Shown here: piece after piece, positions 32,867 through 63,826 of the stretch
How positions within the stretch are numbered: position 1 is the first letter of the stretch
How the letters are laid out: each line of letters begins with the position of its first letter
From: Bacteroidota bacterium
GTDB taxonomy: Bacteria > Bacteroidota > Ignavibacteria > Ignavibacteriales > Ignavibacteriaceae
Assembly: GCA_021815405.1 (NCBI GenBank)
Contig: JAKAGV010000007.1
Coordinates: 1-64,000, forward strand
Length of the DNA stretch: 64,000 nucleotides
Direction: 5' to 3'
The notes under the pieces: generated by a model
Seen by the model: the letters and a program-made list of their open reading frames with translations, nothing else
What the model was told of the DNA's origin: nothing
Databases searched by the model: none
Made by a program: the position numbers and the translations under genes

Positions 32867-33736
32867 TTACGGAATAACTCTTTTCAGTCTTGCTTTCATT
32901 GCCGGTGATTCAAATATAAAAGCTCTAATTGCAATAGCAGTAAGTATTATAATACCTCCAACAATCGCCATGAAAGACGGGACTTCACCGTACCCTAAAA
33001 ATACCCAAACCGGATTTAGTACTGGTTCAATCATCGAGATTAGTGAAGCTTCAATTGCATAAACACGCTTCAATCCATAGCTGAATATTGCGTATGCTAT
33101 CCCTATTTGAAATATTCCGAGATATGATACCATTAAGAAATTTGATGCTGTGAAGTTTGAAATTTCAGAAATGGAACTAAAGCAAATTATTGAAACCAAA
33201 ATATTCCCGTAGAATATAGAGCTGAACTGATATTCTTTTTTATTTTTGCGCATACCAAGAAGAAATGCTGCAAAAGCTACACCTGACAGCAAAGCTAAAA
33301 TATTTCCTCTTATATCGCCGAGCGAGAGTTTTCCCACAAAGAACAACACCATTCCAATGAAACAAAAAAGGATGGTTACTATGTTTATCTTCTCATATTT
33401 GATCTTATTAATCAATGGCTCGAATATCAAAACGTAAATTGGTGCCGTATATTGTAAAAAGATTGCATTGGCGGCGGTTGTCATCTTTGTTGCCATGACA
33501 AACAGTATTAAAATTCCGGAATATAAAACCGCATTTATAAAAGTAAACAGGTTGGCGTAGAAAACTTCTTTCTTAAAAATTACAAGAAAAACAAGTGCTG
33601 CAAAGAAACTTCTGAAAAAAGAAATTTGCATTGCATTAAACGGGACCAGTTTAATAAAAAGTCCTCCGGTACTCCATAATAGTCCGGCGGCAAATACGGC
33701 AAGTAATCCTTTCTGATGTTCGTGCAAGTGCTTCAT
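32867..33736 (-). CDS. EamA/DMT-superfamily transporter
   Basis: This 289-residue inner-membrane protein has about 10 helices in two EamA repeats (for example AVFAAGLLWSTGGLFIKLVP, LISMIEPVLNPVWVFLGYGE). Members export or import amino acids or metabolites by proton coupling. Substrate cannot be inferred. It is transcribed alone and leftward; about 1 kb of gene-free DNA with unusual repeats lies upstream of its start. Confidence 0.88.
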   Translation of the reverse strand: MKHLHEHQKGLLAVFAAGLLWSTGGLFIKLVPFNAMQISFFRSFFAALVFLVIFKKEVFYANLFTFINAVLYSGILILFVMATKMTTAANAIFLQYTAPIYVLIFEPLINKIKYEKINIVTILFCFIGMVLFFVGKLSLGDIRGNILALLSGVAFAAFLLGMRKNKKEYQFSSIFYGNILVSIICFSSISEISNFTASNFLMVSYLGIFQIGIAYAIFSYGLKRVYAIEASLISMIEPVLNPVWVFLGYGEVPSFMAIVGGIIILTAIAIRAFIFESPAMKARLKRVIP

Positions 33737-34045
33737 TAAAGTGTTTGCAAAATTAGATTACAAAATTACGAAAGCGAAACGACTTTAACAGAGTATATTA
33801 TGCTTCTTTCGTAATCTTGATCGTAACCTTGCTCTTAACCAGGTAACTTATGCGATTAAGATTATGGTTAAGAGAAAGATTAAGAATAAAATAGTTGTAA
33901 TAATTAGGTTATATAAAATTTTATTAATTTATTTAGAGTTTTGAGATACGCTATTTAATTTGGAAAGTAGCTGACTCGTAAATTATATAAATGAAATTAG
34001 AAGTCCGACTAACTATTTGATGACTGAATCATTTAGATTAGTAAT
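33737..34045. other. Gene-free region before the 21 bp array
   Basis: This is AT-rich DNA upstream of the leftward EamA gene. It holds the first hairpin repeat (33807-33891). The stretch from about 33900 to 34045 shows no reading frame or RNA structure that I can support, and its sequence does not clearly keep the 21 bp register seen downstream. Confidence 0.5.
33807..33891. repeat. Imperfect hairpin repeat, copy A (TAATC/GATTA-rich)
   Basis: CTCTTAACC (33832-33840) pairs exactly with GGTTAAGAG (33866-33874) around a 25-base loop. Flanks made of TAATCTT and AAGATTA-like words extend the pairing imperfectly. The related copy B lies at 34694-34772 and also has a 25-base loop. Confidence 0.6.
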
Positions 34046-34545
34046 GTAACCCGGCAAGTATAAGATGTAACCGGATGAGAATTTTTTCTAACCTTATAAT
34101 AAATAAACACAATTAGGTAAGAATCAAATGTAACCTTATAAAAATAAGCTATAACCAGGCTGTAATTCGTAATAACATTACAAGAAATAAAATAAATCCT
34201 GTGATAATTGAACCTGTTTTAATAAGAATTTAAATTGACCAATCAAGAATAAAACACAAACAATGTAGTGTAGAATGCAAGTAAGCATCAGTAAAATGCA
34301 AATTAAGCTTTGTAAAACAAAAATAAGACTATGTAAAATGTAAAATAGGTTCTGTAAAAAGCAAATAAGGTTCTGTAAAATGCAAACAAGGTTCTGTAAA
34401 AAGCAAACAAGGTTCTGTAAAAAGCAAATTAGGTTCTGTAAAAAGCAAATTAGGCTGTGTAAATCGCAAAAAAGGTAAAGTATAATGTAACTGCGTCAAT
34501 GTGGTAATTAAATGCGTCAAAATGACAATAGGATGGTAAAGTTTA
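34046..34545. repeat. Degenerate intergenic array with strict 21 bp period (array 1)
   Basis: A conserved head recurs every 21 bp with a variable tail. GTAAC-type heads start at 34046, 34067, 34088 (CTAACC), 34130, 34151 (ATAACC) and 34172 (ATAAC). After a phase shift, GTA-type heads start at 34249 (ATAAAAC), 34270, 34291, 34312, 34333, 34354, 34375, 34396, 34417, 34438, 34459 and 34480. The most regular part (34350-34475) has near-identical units such as TTCTGTAAAAAGCAAATTAG. About 24 unit lengths are covered. It does not code for protein; the leftward frame through it just repeats a heptapeptide. Confidence 0.85.
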
Positions 34546-34693
34546 GGCTGTTATTCCATTAAATAACTATAATATTCTTTTACTTCTTCCAGTTAGGAAT
34601 TTACGTAATGTTCAAATAATTCTAATTTAAATGAATTTAATTAGTTATTTTAGAAATGGCTTCTTTACTAAGGAACAAAGATGCTATCTCTTT

Positions 34694-34772
34694 ATAACTT
34701 GTAATCTTGTTCTTAATCGTACTCGTATTTAGAATCCGACTAAGACAAAGATTACGATTACGAATAAAACGC
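34694..34772. repeat. Imperfect hairpin repeat, copy B
   Basis: GTAATCTTGTTCTTA (34701-34715) pairs with TAAGACAAAGATTAC (34741-34755) with one mismatch over 15, around a 25-base loop. It ends 16 bp before the archease ATG, so in mRNA it could form a 5' leader structure. It resembles copy A in word content and loop length. Confidence 0.6.
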
Positions 34773-34788
34773 AAAATAATTTTTTCCA

Positions 34789-35220
34789 ATGACAGGCAAA
34801 TATAAATTCATAGACCACACAGCAGATATTGCGGCGGAAGTCTCTGCAGAAAATTATAATGATTTATTCATAGTTTCTGCTTATGTGTGGAAAGAGTCAG
34901 TTGTGGAAGATTTCTCTTCAGATAAGCTTGAAGAAAATAAAATTGAAATCAGCGACAGGTCGTTGGAAGAGTTGTTGGTTCATTTTCTTTCTGAGCTAAA
35001 TTATCTTTTGCTTGTGAAGGGATGGATTTTTTCTGAAGTAAAAGAAATTTCTGTTGAAGAAAGTGAAAATCAATTTGCAACTAAAATAAAAATTTTAGGT
35101 GAGCCGGTTGATGAAAAAAAACATGAACTCAAAATTGAAATCAAGGCTGTAACTTTTCATCAAATGAATATTAAGTATAGTGACGGGAAATATAAGACAA
35201 GGATTGTGTTTGATATTTAA
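34789..35220 (+). CDS. Archease (RtcB cofactor)
   Basis: This 143-residue archease promotes guanylylation and multiple turnover of the RNA ligase RtcB. Recognised from KYKFIDHTADIAAEV at the N-terminus (conserved His-Thr-Ala-Asp), a central SLEELLVHFLSELNYLLL helix, AVTFHQMNI and the C-terminal RIVFDI. It is 47 bp upstream of rtcB, the usual pairing. Two regulatory-looking repeats (a hairpin and the 21 bp array) lie immediately upstream. Confidence 0.93.
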   Translation: MTGKYKFIDHTADIAAEVSAENYNDLFIVSAYVWKESVVEDFSSDKLEENKIEISDRSLEELLVHFLSELNYLLLVKGWIFSEVKEISVEESENQFATKIKILGEPVDEKKHELKIEIKAVTFHQMNIKYSDGKYKTRIVFDI

Positions 35221-35267: not shown

Positions 35268-36713
35268 ATGGAAATACAATTAAATAAGATACGAGAGAAT
35301 GTTTGGGAAATTCGTGCTCACGGTGGAATGCGTGTGCCGGGCAGAGTTTATATTTCCAAAGAAATGCTTGACCGCTCAATTCAAAATGAAGATGCGTTAA
35401 AGCAGGTTGTAAATGTTGCTCATCTTCCGGGAATACAAAAGTACAGCCTTGCGATGCCGGATATTCACTGGGGCTACGGATTTCCAATCGGCGGTGTTGC
35501 AGCAACAGATTTATCCGAAGGAGTAATTTCTCCCGGCGGAGTTGGATATGATATTAATTGCGGCGTAAGACTTGCAACAACGTCATTAGAATATGATTTG
35601 GTAAAAAATAAAATTGACTGGCTTATTTCAAATCTTTTCAAAAATATTCCAACCGGAGTTGGTGCAAAAGGTGCAATTAAAAAACTTTCCCATTCGGAGA
35701 TGAGAAAAATTTTAAGCAAAGGCTCGGTTTGGGCGCTTGAAAGCGGTTTCGGAAGACCTGAAGATATTGAGTTTACGGAAGAGAGCGGAACGTTGAAAAA
35801 TGCCGATCCGGATGTTGTAAGCGAGCGAGCAATAGAACGAGGAAACGACCAGGCAGGAACTTTAGGTTCCGGAAATCATTTTCTTGAAGTAGATATTGTT
35901 GAAGAAATTTTTCATCCTAAAGCGGCAGAGACTTTCGGATTATTCAAAAATCAGATTGCAGTTTTGATCCATACCGGCTCACGTGGATTGGGTTATCAAA
36001 TATGCGATGATTATCTAAAAGTCCTGCTTAAAGCAAGCGATGATTATGCAATTAATCTTCCTGACAGACAGCTTGCTTGTGCGCCTTTAAATTCCAAAGA
36101 AGGAAAAGATTATATTGCAGCAATGCAGGCAGCAGCAAACTTTGCATGGAACAACAGGCAGGTGATAATGCATCTTGCTAAAAAAAGTTTCATGTCCACC
36201 TTCGGAATGAAGGAATCCGAGCTTGAGTTTAATCTTGTTTACGATGTCTGCCACAATATTGCAAAAATTGAAGAGCACAAAATCGGAGAAGAGAAAAAGC
36301 AAGTTTGTGTGCATCGCAAAGGCGCCACCAGAGCATTTCCTCCCGGCAATGAAATGATTCCGAAGAAATATAAAGAAGTCGGTCAGCCGGTTTTAATACC
36401 CGGCGATATGGGAAGATATTCATACGTTGCAGTAGGAACAGAAAAGGCAATGGAAGAAACATTCGGAAGCTCTTGCCATGGTGCCGGAAGAAATCTCAGC
36501 AGAACCAAAGCAATGAAAGAAGCTAAAGGAAGAGACCTTGTACAGGAATTAAAAGACAAAGGAATAGTAATTCAGGCGAAGGGTTACAAAACGATTGCGG
36601 AAGAAATGTCCGGCGCATACAAAGACGTAGCGGATGTTGTTAACGTAATGCATGAAGAAGGTATTACAAAGAAAGTTGCTAAACTAAGACCGATTGGGGT
36701 AATAAAAGGTTGA
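35268..36713 (+). CDS. rtcB: RNA-splicing ligase RtcB
   Basis: GTP- and Mn-dependent ligase joining RNA 2',3'-cyclic phosphate or 3'-phosphate ends to 5'-OH ends. Motifs are MPDIHWGYGFPIGG, GVGYDINCGVRL (metal Cys), GSGNHFLEV, LIHTGSRGLG and SSCHGAGRNLSRTKA (the guanylated His region). At 481 residues it has family length. In bacteria it repairs broken tRNA or rRNA. Its stop overlaps the TTG start of the next gene, so it is translationally joined to a run of envelope genes. Confidence 0.97.
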   Translation: MEIQLNKIRENVWEIRAHGGMRVPGRVYISKEMLDRSIQNEDALKQVVNVAHLPGIQKYSLAMPDIHWGYGFPIGGVAATDLSEGVISPGGVGYDINCGVRLATTSLEYDLVKNKIDWLISNLFKNIPTGVGAKGAIKKLSHSEMRKILSKGSVWALESGFGRPEDIEFTEESGTLKNADPDVVSERAIERGNDQAGTLGSGNHFLEVDIVEEIFHPKAAETFGLFKNQIAVLIHTGSRGLGYQICDDYLKVLLKASDDYAINLPDRQLACAPLNSKEGKDYIAAMQAAANFAWNNRQVIMHLAKKSFMSTFGMKESELEFNLVYDVCHNIAKIEEHKIGEEKKQVCVHRKGATRAFPPGNEMIPKKYKEVGQPVLIPGDMGRYSYVAVGTEKAMEETFGSSCHGAGRNLSRTKAMKEAKGRDLVQELKDKGIVIQAKGYKTIAEEMSGAYKDVADVVNVMHEEGITKKVAKLRPIGVIKG

Positions 36714-63056: not shown

Positions 63057-63203
63057 ATGAAGAATTAAAGATCAAGGATGTAGAAGCAATTTGGTGAATG
63101 AATGCATGAAGAGCATAGATGCATGATTAACCTGAAGTTCTGAGTTGGATTTTGTAATGTGTAAATTGATTGATAAAAGTTTCATCCGGCATAATAGGCG
63201 ATT
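63057..63203. other. Gene-free region downstream of GH127
   Basis: AT-rich DNA with a palindromic stretch around ATGAATGCATGAAGAGCATA. No reading frame. It leads into the 21 bp array that starts near 63204. Confidence 0.45.
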
Positions 63204-63662
63204 CACATAGCAAATTTGATATTCAACATGATTGTTTTAAGTTTTTGCAATTCAATAAAAAGGATTCACATAGCATTCTGATAACTTCACATAGCTAAAT
63301 GAAAGCTTCACATTATGAAATATATGTGCAGCAATCACATCTAAAGTGACGCAGAATCAAATAAACAGCTCACATTACAAGTTGATTTCGTCACATAACG
63401 AAATGATAGTTTAACATTATGATGTATATGTGCAGCAATCACATTTCAAGTAGTGCAAAATCAAATTTACATCGCACATAGCTGAATGATCTTAGCACAT
63501 AACGGGAAAAAAGCTCAGCATAATCAAAATTAAAGCTCACAAATCACATTTGGAATTGTGCAGAATCAAATTATTTTTAGCATAATGAGTCGATTTAACA
63601 ACAATACTAAATGGATGCGGCACATAGTTGAAAAGACGAAGCGCAAAATACATTTCTTTTCA
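63204..63662. repeat. Degenerate intergenic array with 20-21 bp period (array 2)
   Basis: Units begin with a short head of the form NRCA(A/T), most often CACAT, and are followed by a variable tail of about 14-16 bp. Unit starts are 63204, 63225, 63246, 63267, 63288, 63309, 63330, 63351, 63371, 63392, 63413, 63434, 63455, 63475, 63496, 63517, 63538, 63559, 63579, 63600, 63621 and 63642; only three intervals are 20 instead of 21. A higher-order duplication of about 104 bp links 63309-63365 and 63413-63469, both holding ATGTGCAGCAATCACAT. No open reading frame spans it. Confidence 0.87.
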
Positions 63663-63698: not shown

Positions 63699-63826
63699 TT
63701 ACTCACGTTACGCAGATGTCATGCTGAACTTGTTTCAGCATCCCCAAAATGCTGAAAAATGAGATTCCGAATCAAGTTTGGAATGACAAAGTAAATTAGA
63801 TCCTTAATTGTGCGTAACGTAAGTTA
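63699..63826 (-). repeat. MITE-like element, copy 3 (inverted relative to copies 1 and 2)
   Basis: TTACTCACGTTACGCA at the left end and TGCGTAACGTAAGTTA at the right end are imperfect inverse repeats. Inside, the same two palindromes occur in reverse order (GTCATGCTGAACTTGTTTCA, then GATTCCGAATCAAGTTTGGA), so this copy is flipped. It lies directly beyond array 2 and about 110 bp before the aminotransferase gene. It is more diverged than copies 1 and 2. Confidence 0.72.

Follow-up and report, generated by a model that had tools for sequence, protein, structure and literature searches.

Introduction

Dedicated proteins bind several kinds of direct-repeat DNA, such as multi-site operators, iterons and centromere-like arrays. 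Intergenic tandem repeats of other kinds are familiar in bacteria as VNTRs and, in cyanobacteria, as short tandemly repeated repetitive sequences, which are heptamers. A further system is that of the TIGR arrays, which consist of two alternating repeats of 8-12 nt with spacers of 9-12 nt and are processed to 36-nt RNAs, the half-unit being 18 (PMC12045711).

The window analysed here is a stretch of 64,000 nucleotides (contig JAKAGV010000007.1) from a genome of the Ignavibacteriaceae (GCA_021815405.1, hereafter G000), in which one intergenic region carries a tandem array with a 21-bp step (array 1). Like operators and iterons, arrays of this type repeat a unit of about 20 bp directly and in helical phase, next to a gene that is presumably regulated and that is also the presumed source of the binder. 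They differ in that one genome has many such loci, with different motifs on a single step and 10-40 units each, and in that most of the linked proteins have no recognised DNA-binding domain. With the cyanobacterial heptamers and the VNTRs they share the intergenic tandem arrangement, and 21 is three heptamers; however, array 1 has no lag-7 signal, there is no 7-bp conservation and the linkage to genes is fixed, and heptamer repeats were rejected for want of a 7-bp period. A CRISPR array, with identical repeats of at least 25 bp and unique spacers, was likewise rejected, the unit being 21 bp and degenerate. The likeness to TIGR-Tas (PMC12045711) lies in the short locus-specific repeats combined with variable stretches, the alternating units of some arrays and the neighbouring protein gene, but the period is 21/42 instead of 18/36, 36-nt units were not found, and conservation here follows the helical phase of the DNA, with a peak at 10.5 bp. 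We recognised no description of such arrays in bacteria among the titles and abstracts of the open-access papers searched.

Array 1 and its surroundings

The coordinates of the features in the window are collected in Table 1. The initial annotation had placed a 21-bp array at 34046-34545, and this was borne out, with a lag-21 z of 13.5 (60% matches against 32% expected) accompanied by lags 42 (z 12.4) and 63 (z 10.5). Lags 7, 10, 11, 20 and 22 did not exceed z 1.1 (lag 7, z -0.6). Over the intergenic region as a whole the lag-21 z was 13.3, and none of 300 dinucleotide shuffles went beyond 4.9; TRF called periods of 21, 42 and 63, and the left stretch (34046-34245) taken by itself gave z 4.5. 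Of the heads that had been listed, 34088 reads CTAACC, and 34151 and 34172 begin with ATAAC. GTAAC and GTAAAA are not one head, contrary to what had been supposed: GTAAC (34046, 34067, 34130) and GTAAAA (from 34291 on) mark two different places within the same unit, offset by 14 bp in phase, and in the 34046 phase the later units start with GCAAA or GTAAA and have GTAAAA from position 15. Nor is there a break between 34172 and 34249, where the phase runs on as in a single array.

Table 1. Features of the window around array 1 and array 2.
Feature	Position	Strand	Remarks
EamA-family transporter gene, divergent neighbour	32867..33736	-	Pfam EamA 1.9e-27
Imperfect inverted repeat left of array 1	33809..33892	.	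arms 33814-33841/33865-33892, 79% complementary
Array 1	34046..34528 (end approximate)	+	21-bp step, one phase, about 23 units; unit in 34046 phase GYAAMN...GTTCTGTAAAA
Array 1, divergent left part	34046..34276	+	11 units, mean pairwise identity 0.48; shuffled units 0.32
Array 1, homogeneous block	34340..34465	+	six units, mean pairwise identity 0.84
Element right of array 1	34702..34757	.	arms 34704-34736, 34741-34757; imperfectly complementary to the left one
Archease gene, next + strand gene downstream of array 1	34789..35220	+	Pfam Archease 3.3e-33
rtcB-like gene	35268..36713	+	ORF; homologues in 27/41 genomes
Array 2	about 63197..63660	+	21-bp step with one-base slips; head TCACATA

The contrast that had been drawn between a diverged and a homogeneous end holds for the two parts, but the homogeneous block is not the end of the array, as degenerate in-phase units follow it at 34466, 34487 and 34508. 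The block is a recent local duplication, and the identity of neighbouring units (0.68, against 0.49 for distant ones) supports unit duplication as the probable way in which array 1 has grown. This part of the initial proposal extends to L144 and L146, and g257b too has neighbouring units more alike than distant ones, but it does not extend to many other arrays (L108, L110, L121, L137 and L140), where adjacent units resemble each other no more than remote ones do; duplication alone therefore does not explain the strict step.

Array 1 sits in a 1,052-bp gap, from which the EamA gene points to the left and the archease and rtcB-like genes to the right; the last of these is a putative rtcB, the RNA ligase partner of archease. 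No gene of the six array-linked families described below adjoins it, and no match to families A or B was found in the window. Its DNA had only short matches within its own genome, and a search of 59 genomes (its own included; E 0.001) returned its own genome and two partial matches of 35-50 bp. At the syntenic locus of G007, where RtcB is 93% identical, there is a gap of about 0.5 kb and no called array. Array 1 resembles other arrays weakly (z 4.1 for the best of 88; z 3.4 with L125 and 3.1 with L146 in a comparison of 33 arrays). Rfam gave nothing above the gathering score in 33700-34800, with two sub-threshold matches. The imperfect inverted repeats on both flanks of the array (33809-33892 and 34702-34757) have a GATTAAGA/TCTTAATC-like theme and are in part complementary to each other, and lag-6 repeats are also present 5' of rtcB in several relatives (L005, L013, L020).

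Array 2, to which the same period had been ascribed, does have the 21-bp step, but with slips of one base; the best lag is 104 (5x21-1; z 9.9), with z of at most 5.8 at lag 21, which is under the threshold of the genome census. Its motif resembles that of the array at L142:19194-19509 (z 6.4). A dispersed element, CTCACGTTACGCA..TCATGCTGAACTTG.TTCAGCATC, adjoins three 21-bp arrays (window 63700-63750, L134:13986-14027 and L121:13461-13502), and the CTCACGTTACG within it is similar to array 2's head.

The 21-bp step across genomes

It had been suggested that the arrays of this genome share the 21-bp step with locus-specific heads, and that unrelated periods elsewhere would reduce this to a coincidence. 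An unbiased lag scan was run for this purpose (lags 6-70, 168-bp windows, z above 6). After merging, 1.23 Mb of G000 yielded 25 stretches, of which 21 had a best lag of 21, 41, 42 or 63; once an array split by a fetch border was counted as one, this became 20 of 24. In 0.38 Mb of the congener G008 the same periods accounted for 14 of 19 stretches (corrected, 13 of 18), one of these 13 arrays, L258, falling within an ORF. The remaining repeat stretches of both genomes were mostly inside ORFs. A control scan of 80 loci from 80 other records of various phyla (1.18 Mb) gave 23 calls, three of them at lag 21. The motifs are specific to each locus, only 15 of 528 pairs among 33 arrays having z above 3. 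The shared step is no coincidence.

Outside the called arrays there was no lag-21 excess in G000 (z -1.2), and z was 2.4 in G008. The 77 loci among L154-L230, a mixed set from unrelated genomes, have a small lag-21 excess in intergenic DNA outside called arrays (0.72%, z 4.7), with no single intergenic stretch above z 3.3. Sampling has to be kept in mind when arrays are missing: 160 kb of G003 contained no 21-bp array, yet two family C genes of that genome (L348, L350) do carry one, so that absence from the sampled DNA does not mean absence from the genome. Some arrays are placed between convergent genes. Repeats of other lengths were seen as well. Related proteins with 16-residue repeats (48-bp arrays) are encoded near 21-bp arrays in G000 (L142:17487-18191) and G008 (L283:1-537), a stretch with a 65-66-bp period (L329:85-777) lies 5' of a 21-bp array at about 151.2-151.9 kb of G000:C17, and G013 has a 66-bp-period stretch, possibly a CRISPR (L243:11026-13692).

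Unit anatomy and helical phase

Among 32 arrays (L113 entering as two overlapping pieces) we counted 388 unit steps of 21 bp, eight of 20, one of 19 and none of 22, along with 12 double steps of 42 and four of 41, counts that lean towards 21 since detection at a fixed lag favours arrays without indels. Despite this strict step only about 45-75% of the bases are common to the units. Conservation falls on adjoining columns (Fisher p 4.5e-12) and follows no codon rhythm (Fisher p 0.98). Some arrays alternate two unit types, giving 42 bp, and others do not. Dyad symmetry or palindromes were found in 8 of the 32 arrays (p 0.02 or less) and in 2 of 8 HTH_26 arrays, these two being orthologues, and palindromic sites were accordingly rejected as a general rule.

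When conservation over the 21 columns was decomposed in 57 arrays, the largest component was that of 10.5 bp, with a share of 0.210 against 0.101 in the null (sd 0.011, z 10.0); it reached p<0.05 in 20 individual arrays, array 1 (p 0.20) not being among them. The 21-bp component came second (z 6.2; 11 of 57 arrays), there was no 7-bp component, and the 3-bp one was smaller than expected by chance (z -2.8). Autocorrelated, smooth noise of four strengths matched the excess of 10.5 over 21 in 3.5%, 1.5%, 0.7% and 0% of trials. Contacts made from one side of B-DNA would leave such a 10.5-bp rhythm.

Arrays precede particular gene families

Small proteins encoded next to the arrays, without a Pfam match and alike between genomes, were grouped as families A (about 235 aa, helical), B (about 243 aa), C (about 125 aa, with the C-terminal SDEYEqLGGtrkSdrKK) and D (a coil plus fn3). 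To these we added the HTH_26 regulator found as a neighbour (Pfam 8.8e-09) and the PQLLE family, of which the neighbour of g288 in G008 is a member (NCBIfam NF052641, 3.7e-31, 108.4 bits against a cut-off of 80 bits). NF052641 is the model of a protein family, and array 1 has no such neighbour. The word PQLLE was not found in the open-access papers searched; judging by the existence of an NCBIfam name, at least one of the linked families had already been noticed. The family B gene of G000 is broken and continues in another frame (L125:9571-10298), a true break or an assembly error, and the copies of three relatives read through.

Homologues were searched in 59 relatives (for PQLLE, in 296 Bacteroidota genomes, seven of which had matches) and 1.5 kb was inspected on each side, for 20 of the 37 family A matches (in nine genomes) and for every match of the other families. 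A 21-type array lay upstream at 64 of 72 loci and downstream, at these lags, at none. By family, the upstream arrays were 19/20 (A), 4/4 (B), 16/16 (C), 6/6 (D), 8/12 (HTH_26) and 11/14 (PQLLE), families C and D being scored from coordinates. Leaving out eight loci known beforehand the count is 56/64, and at three of the eight misses (L316, L332, L337) the 5' sequence is shorter than 500 bp. For genes of at least 150 aa in general, an array is upstream in 23 of 867 (G000) and 17 of 245 (G008) and downstream in 23 and 16, respectively, that is, in G000 as often on one side as on the other. The rtcB loci used as a control had an upstream array in 0 of 19 cases. Array-then-gene order was also seen in the GC-rich G143 (L328, L334). 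The linkage fades with distance: ten additional matches to family C, more remote ones within the phylum, included only two with an array, and the strong matches L366 (E 6.9e-34) and L369 (5.4e-16) are without one. At L296 an array of 35-bp period lies 3' of the gene (lag-21 z 14.0) and was excluded since its best lag is 35. Some arrays stop 30-100 bp 5' of the start codon. Between array and gene, promoter motifs were no more frequent than in shuffles (TAnnTTTG at 3 of 28 loci vs 2.95, TATAAT-like at 20 of 28 vs 20.2).

A more distant case is plasmid pA of the cyanobacterium Kovacikia minuta (L363, L378, L379), where a distant homologue of family C has a 42-bp array 5' of it but also, on its 3' side, a hairpin-like array of 41 bp. 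We give this case little weight, because it is one of two places in the record and the background is rich in repeats (23 calls in 100 kb, mostly of 7, 8 and 30 bp, two of 21).

The AlphaFold models of families A (all-helical, pLDDT 81.6, pTM 0.49) and C (helical, pLDDT 86.0, pTM 0.53) had no match in the PDB at E 0.001, nor in a viral fold search, and it was generic bundles that scored best with the aligner (Z up to 8.9). Family A is mostly acidic (pI below 7 in 17/20), which is not typical of DNA binders; among the linked proteins only the HTH_26 regulators are evidently of that kind. Carriage by viruses or plasmids was rejected, the family A protein of L309 having no match in phages or plasmids and the family C protein of L345 none in phages and one plasmid record.

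Array motifs within families and between orthologues

The array motif tends to follow the protein family, as far as can be judged from the motif comparisons. Motif z exceeded 3 in 13% of 344 within-family pairs vs 2.5% of 1087 between-family pairs (25 permutations a pair), with 38 such matches on the same strand and eight on opposite strands. Among 22 hand-picked within-family pairs, the motifs were alike in 20 (p below 0.05), in every case on the same strand. There are also homologous neighbours with unlike motifs (L341/L344, L295/L309, L125/g275 and L104/g290).

Orthologous arrays can be closely aligned: L341/L342 over 1.7 kb at 87% and L309/L314 at 88% over the array part. No indel was found inside the array in these two pairs or in L295/L296, L341/L343 has two 1-bp gaps and L315/L317 four gaps. 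We compared the eight most conserved columns of the unit (core) with the eight least conserved (tail), chosen on one sequence of each pair. In five pairs, two of which use L341, changes in core v tail were 16/120 v 27/120 (p 0.09), 6/112 v 20/112 (p 0.006), 19/99 v 46/97 (p 4e-5), 32/92 v 41/93 (p 0.23) and 42/100 v 43/97 (p 0.78), i.e., cores change significantly less than tails in two of the five.

Possible explanations

The arrays, with their exact step, their upstream position, their conservation in helical phase and, in part of the orthologous pairs, their constraint, may be explained in several ways. The one that we favour, at roughly even chances, is that they are cis-acting arrays of double-stranded binding sites, operator- or enhancer-like, that control the next gene. 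The fact that relatives keep them just upstream of small-protein families makes them look like control elements and not junk.

The main mechanistic rival is a role at the RNA level, in which the units would be transcribed, within the next gene's leader or as a separate RNA of 21/42-nt units, and bound by or guiding the helical neighbour in the manner of TIGR-Tas. We consider it unlikely. The resemblance to TIGR arrays set out above (PMC12045711) includes the 42-bp alternation of some arrays, and where arrays end so close to the start codon there is little room for a promoter in between. However, the folding z was above -2 in 9 of 12 stretches, the other three being L317 (-4.65), L309 (-2.56) and L303 (-2.00), for which RNA hairpins were rejected, and conservation has its peak at 10.5 bp. 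Moreover, the tails of the homogeneous arrays are not independent spacers, and the larger unit is 42 and not 36. In 19 members of family A the Pfam matches, taken up to E 1, included no Nop domain; Nop proteins were also not among the matches listed from the fold searches, which by itself excludes nothing. The period, the 10.5-bp rhythm and the undetected Nop domain tend to speak against membership of TIGR-Tas.

It is likewise unlikely that these are ordinary minisatellites, growing by slippage or unequal exchange and drifting without function. Such an origin would suit the four arrays in which neighbouring units are more alike than distant ones, the satellite-like higher-order units of 42 bp, and array 1 in particular, which is missing at the syntenic locus of G007 and, two short partial matches apart, from 58 other genomes. 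It does not suit a step fixed at 21 in unlike sequences (388 v 9 unit steps), a position tied to gene families, or the stronger conservation of cores between species in two pairs. Sequence and position free of constraint, as expected of neutral minisatellites, are not what the arrays of the six families have; array 1 lies outside that result.

Two further explanations fare worse. The arrays could be contingency loci that tune expression, the number of units setting the in-phase distance or the occupancy of an upstream site and changing expression stepwise. Units of two turns would preserve the phase, the arrays are upstream and array 1 was recently duplicated, but the closest orthologous arrays (L341/L342, L309/L314) are equal in length and free of indels, so unit number is not hypervariable there, and we regard this as improbable. 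That the arrays are pieces of coiled-coil genes with heptads of seven codons is disfavoured as very improbable: several overlap ORFs of 100-210 aa and g283 reads heptad-like, but a 21-bp period by itself keeps a frame open, many arrays have no long ORF, and period-3 conservation is absent by both tests given above.

A proposed binding platform upstream of small-protein genes

If the arrays are binding sites, a unit would correspond to two helical turns, and the conserved cores would therefore face the same side of the helix throughout, so that copies of a protein could bind side by side on one face, unit by unit. We infer from the arrays that such binding occurs, that it is cooperative, and that an array shortly upstream of a small-protein gene would control that gene. 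The likeliest binder would be the product of the adjoining gene or a dedicated partner; that it is the neighbouring gene's own product is our guess. Array 1 would be an array of this kind that arose in the present lineage, within the promoter region from which the EamA and archease-rtcB genes diverge, and that has recently grown by duplication of units; the gene under its control would be archease-rtcB or the transporter. It is best read as a lineage-specific copy without a neighbour of the family type, its function being putative.

A more far-reaching idea, which we put forward tentatively and as rather doubtful, is that array and small protein form a two-part, self-addressed nucleoprotein system, in which the proteins of several helical, fast-evolving families assemble on the array 5' of their own gene with family-specific recognition, and orphan arrays such as array 1 are docking sites acquired elsewhere. 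If this were true, the protein-DNA assemblies of one genome, each with its own address, would number in the dozens.

Should the arrays be binding platforms, a single spacing rule, that of two helical turns, would be in use at dozens of loci that differ in sequence and would be tied to several functionally uncharacterised protein families, and the arrays as well as the orphan proteins would gain a testable partner. They would also provide a natural set in which to follow the co-divergence of sites and proteins under a fixed geometry. An upstream 21-bp array is, besides, a handle for finding more members of the linked families.
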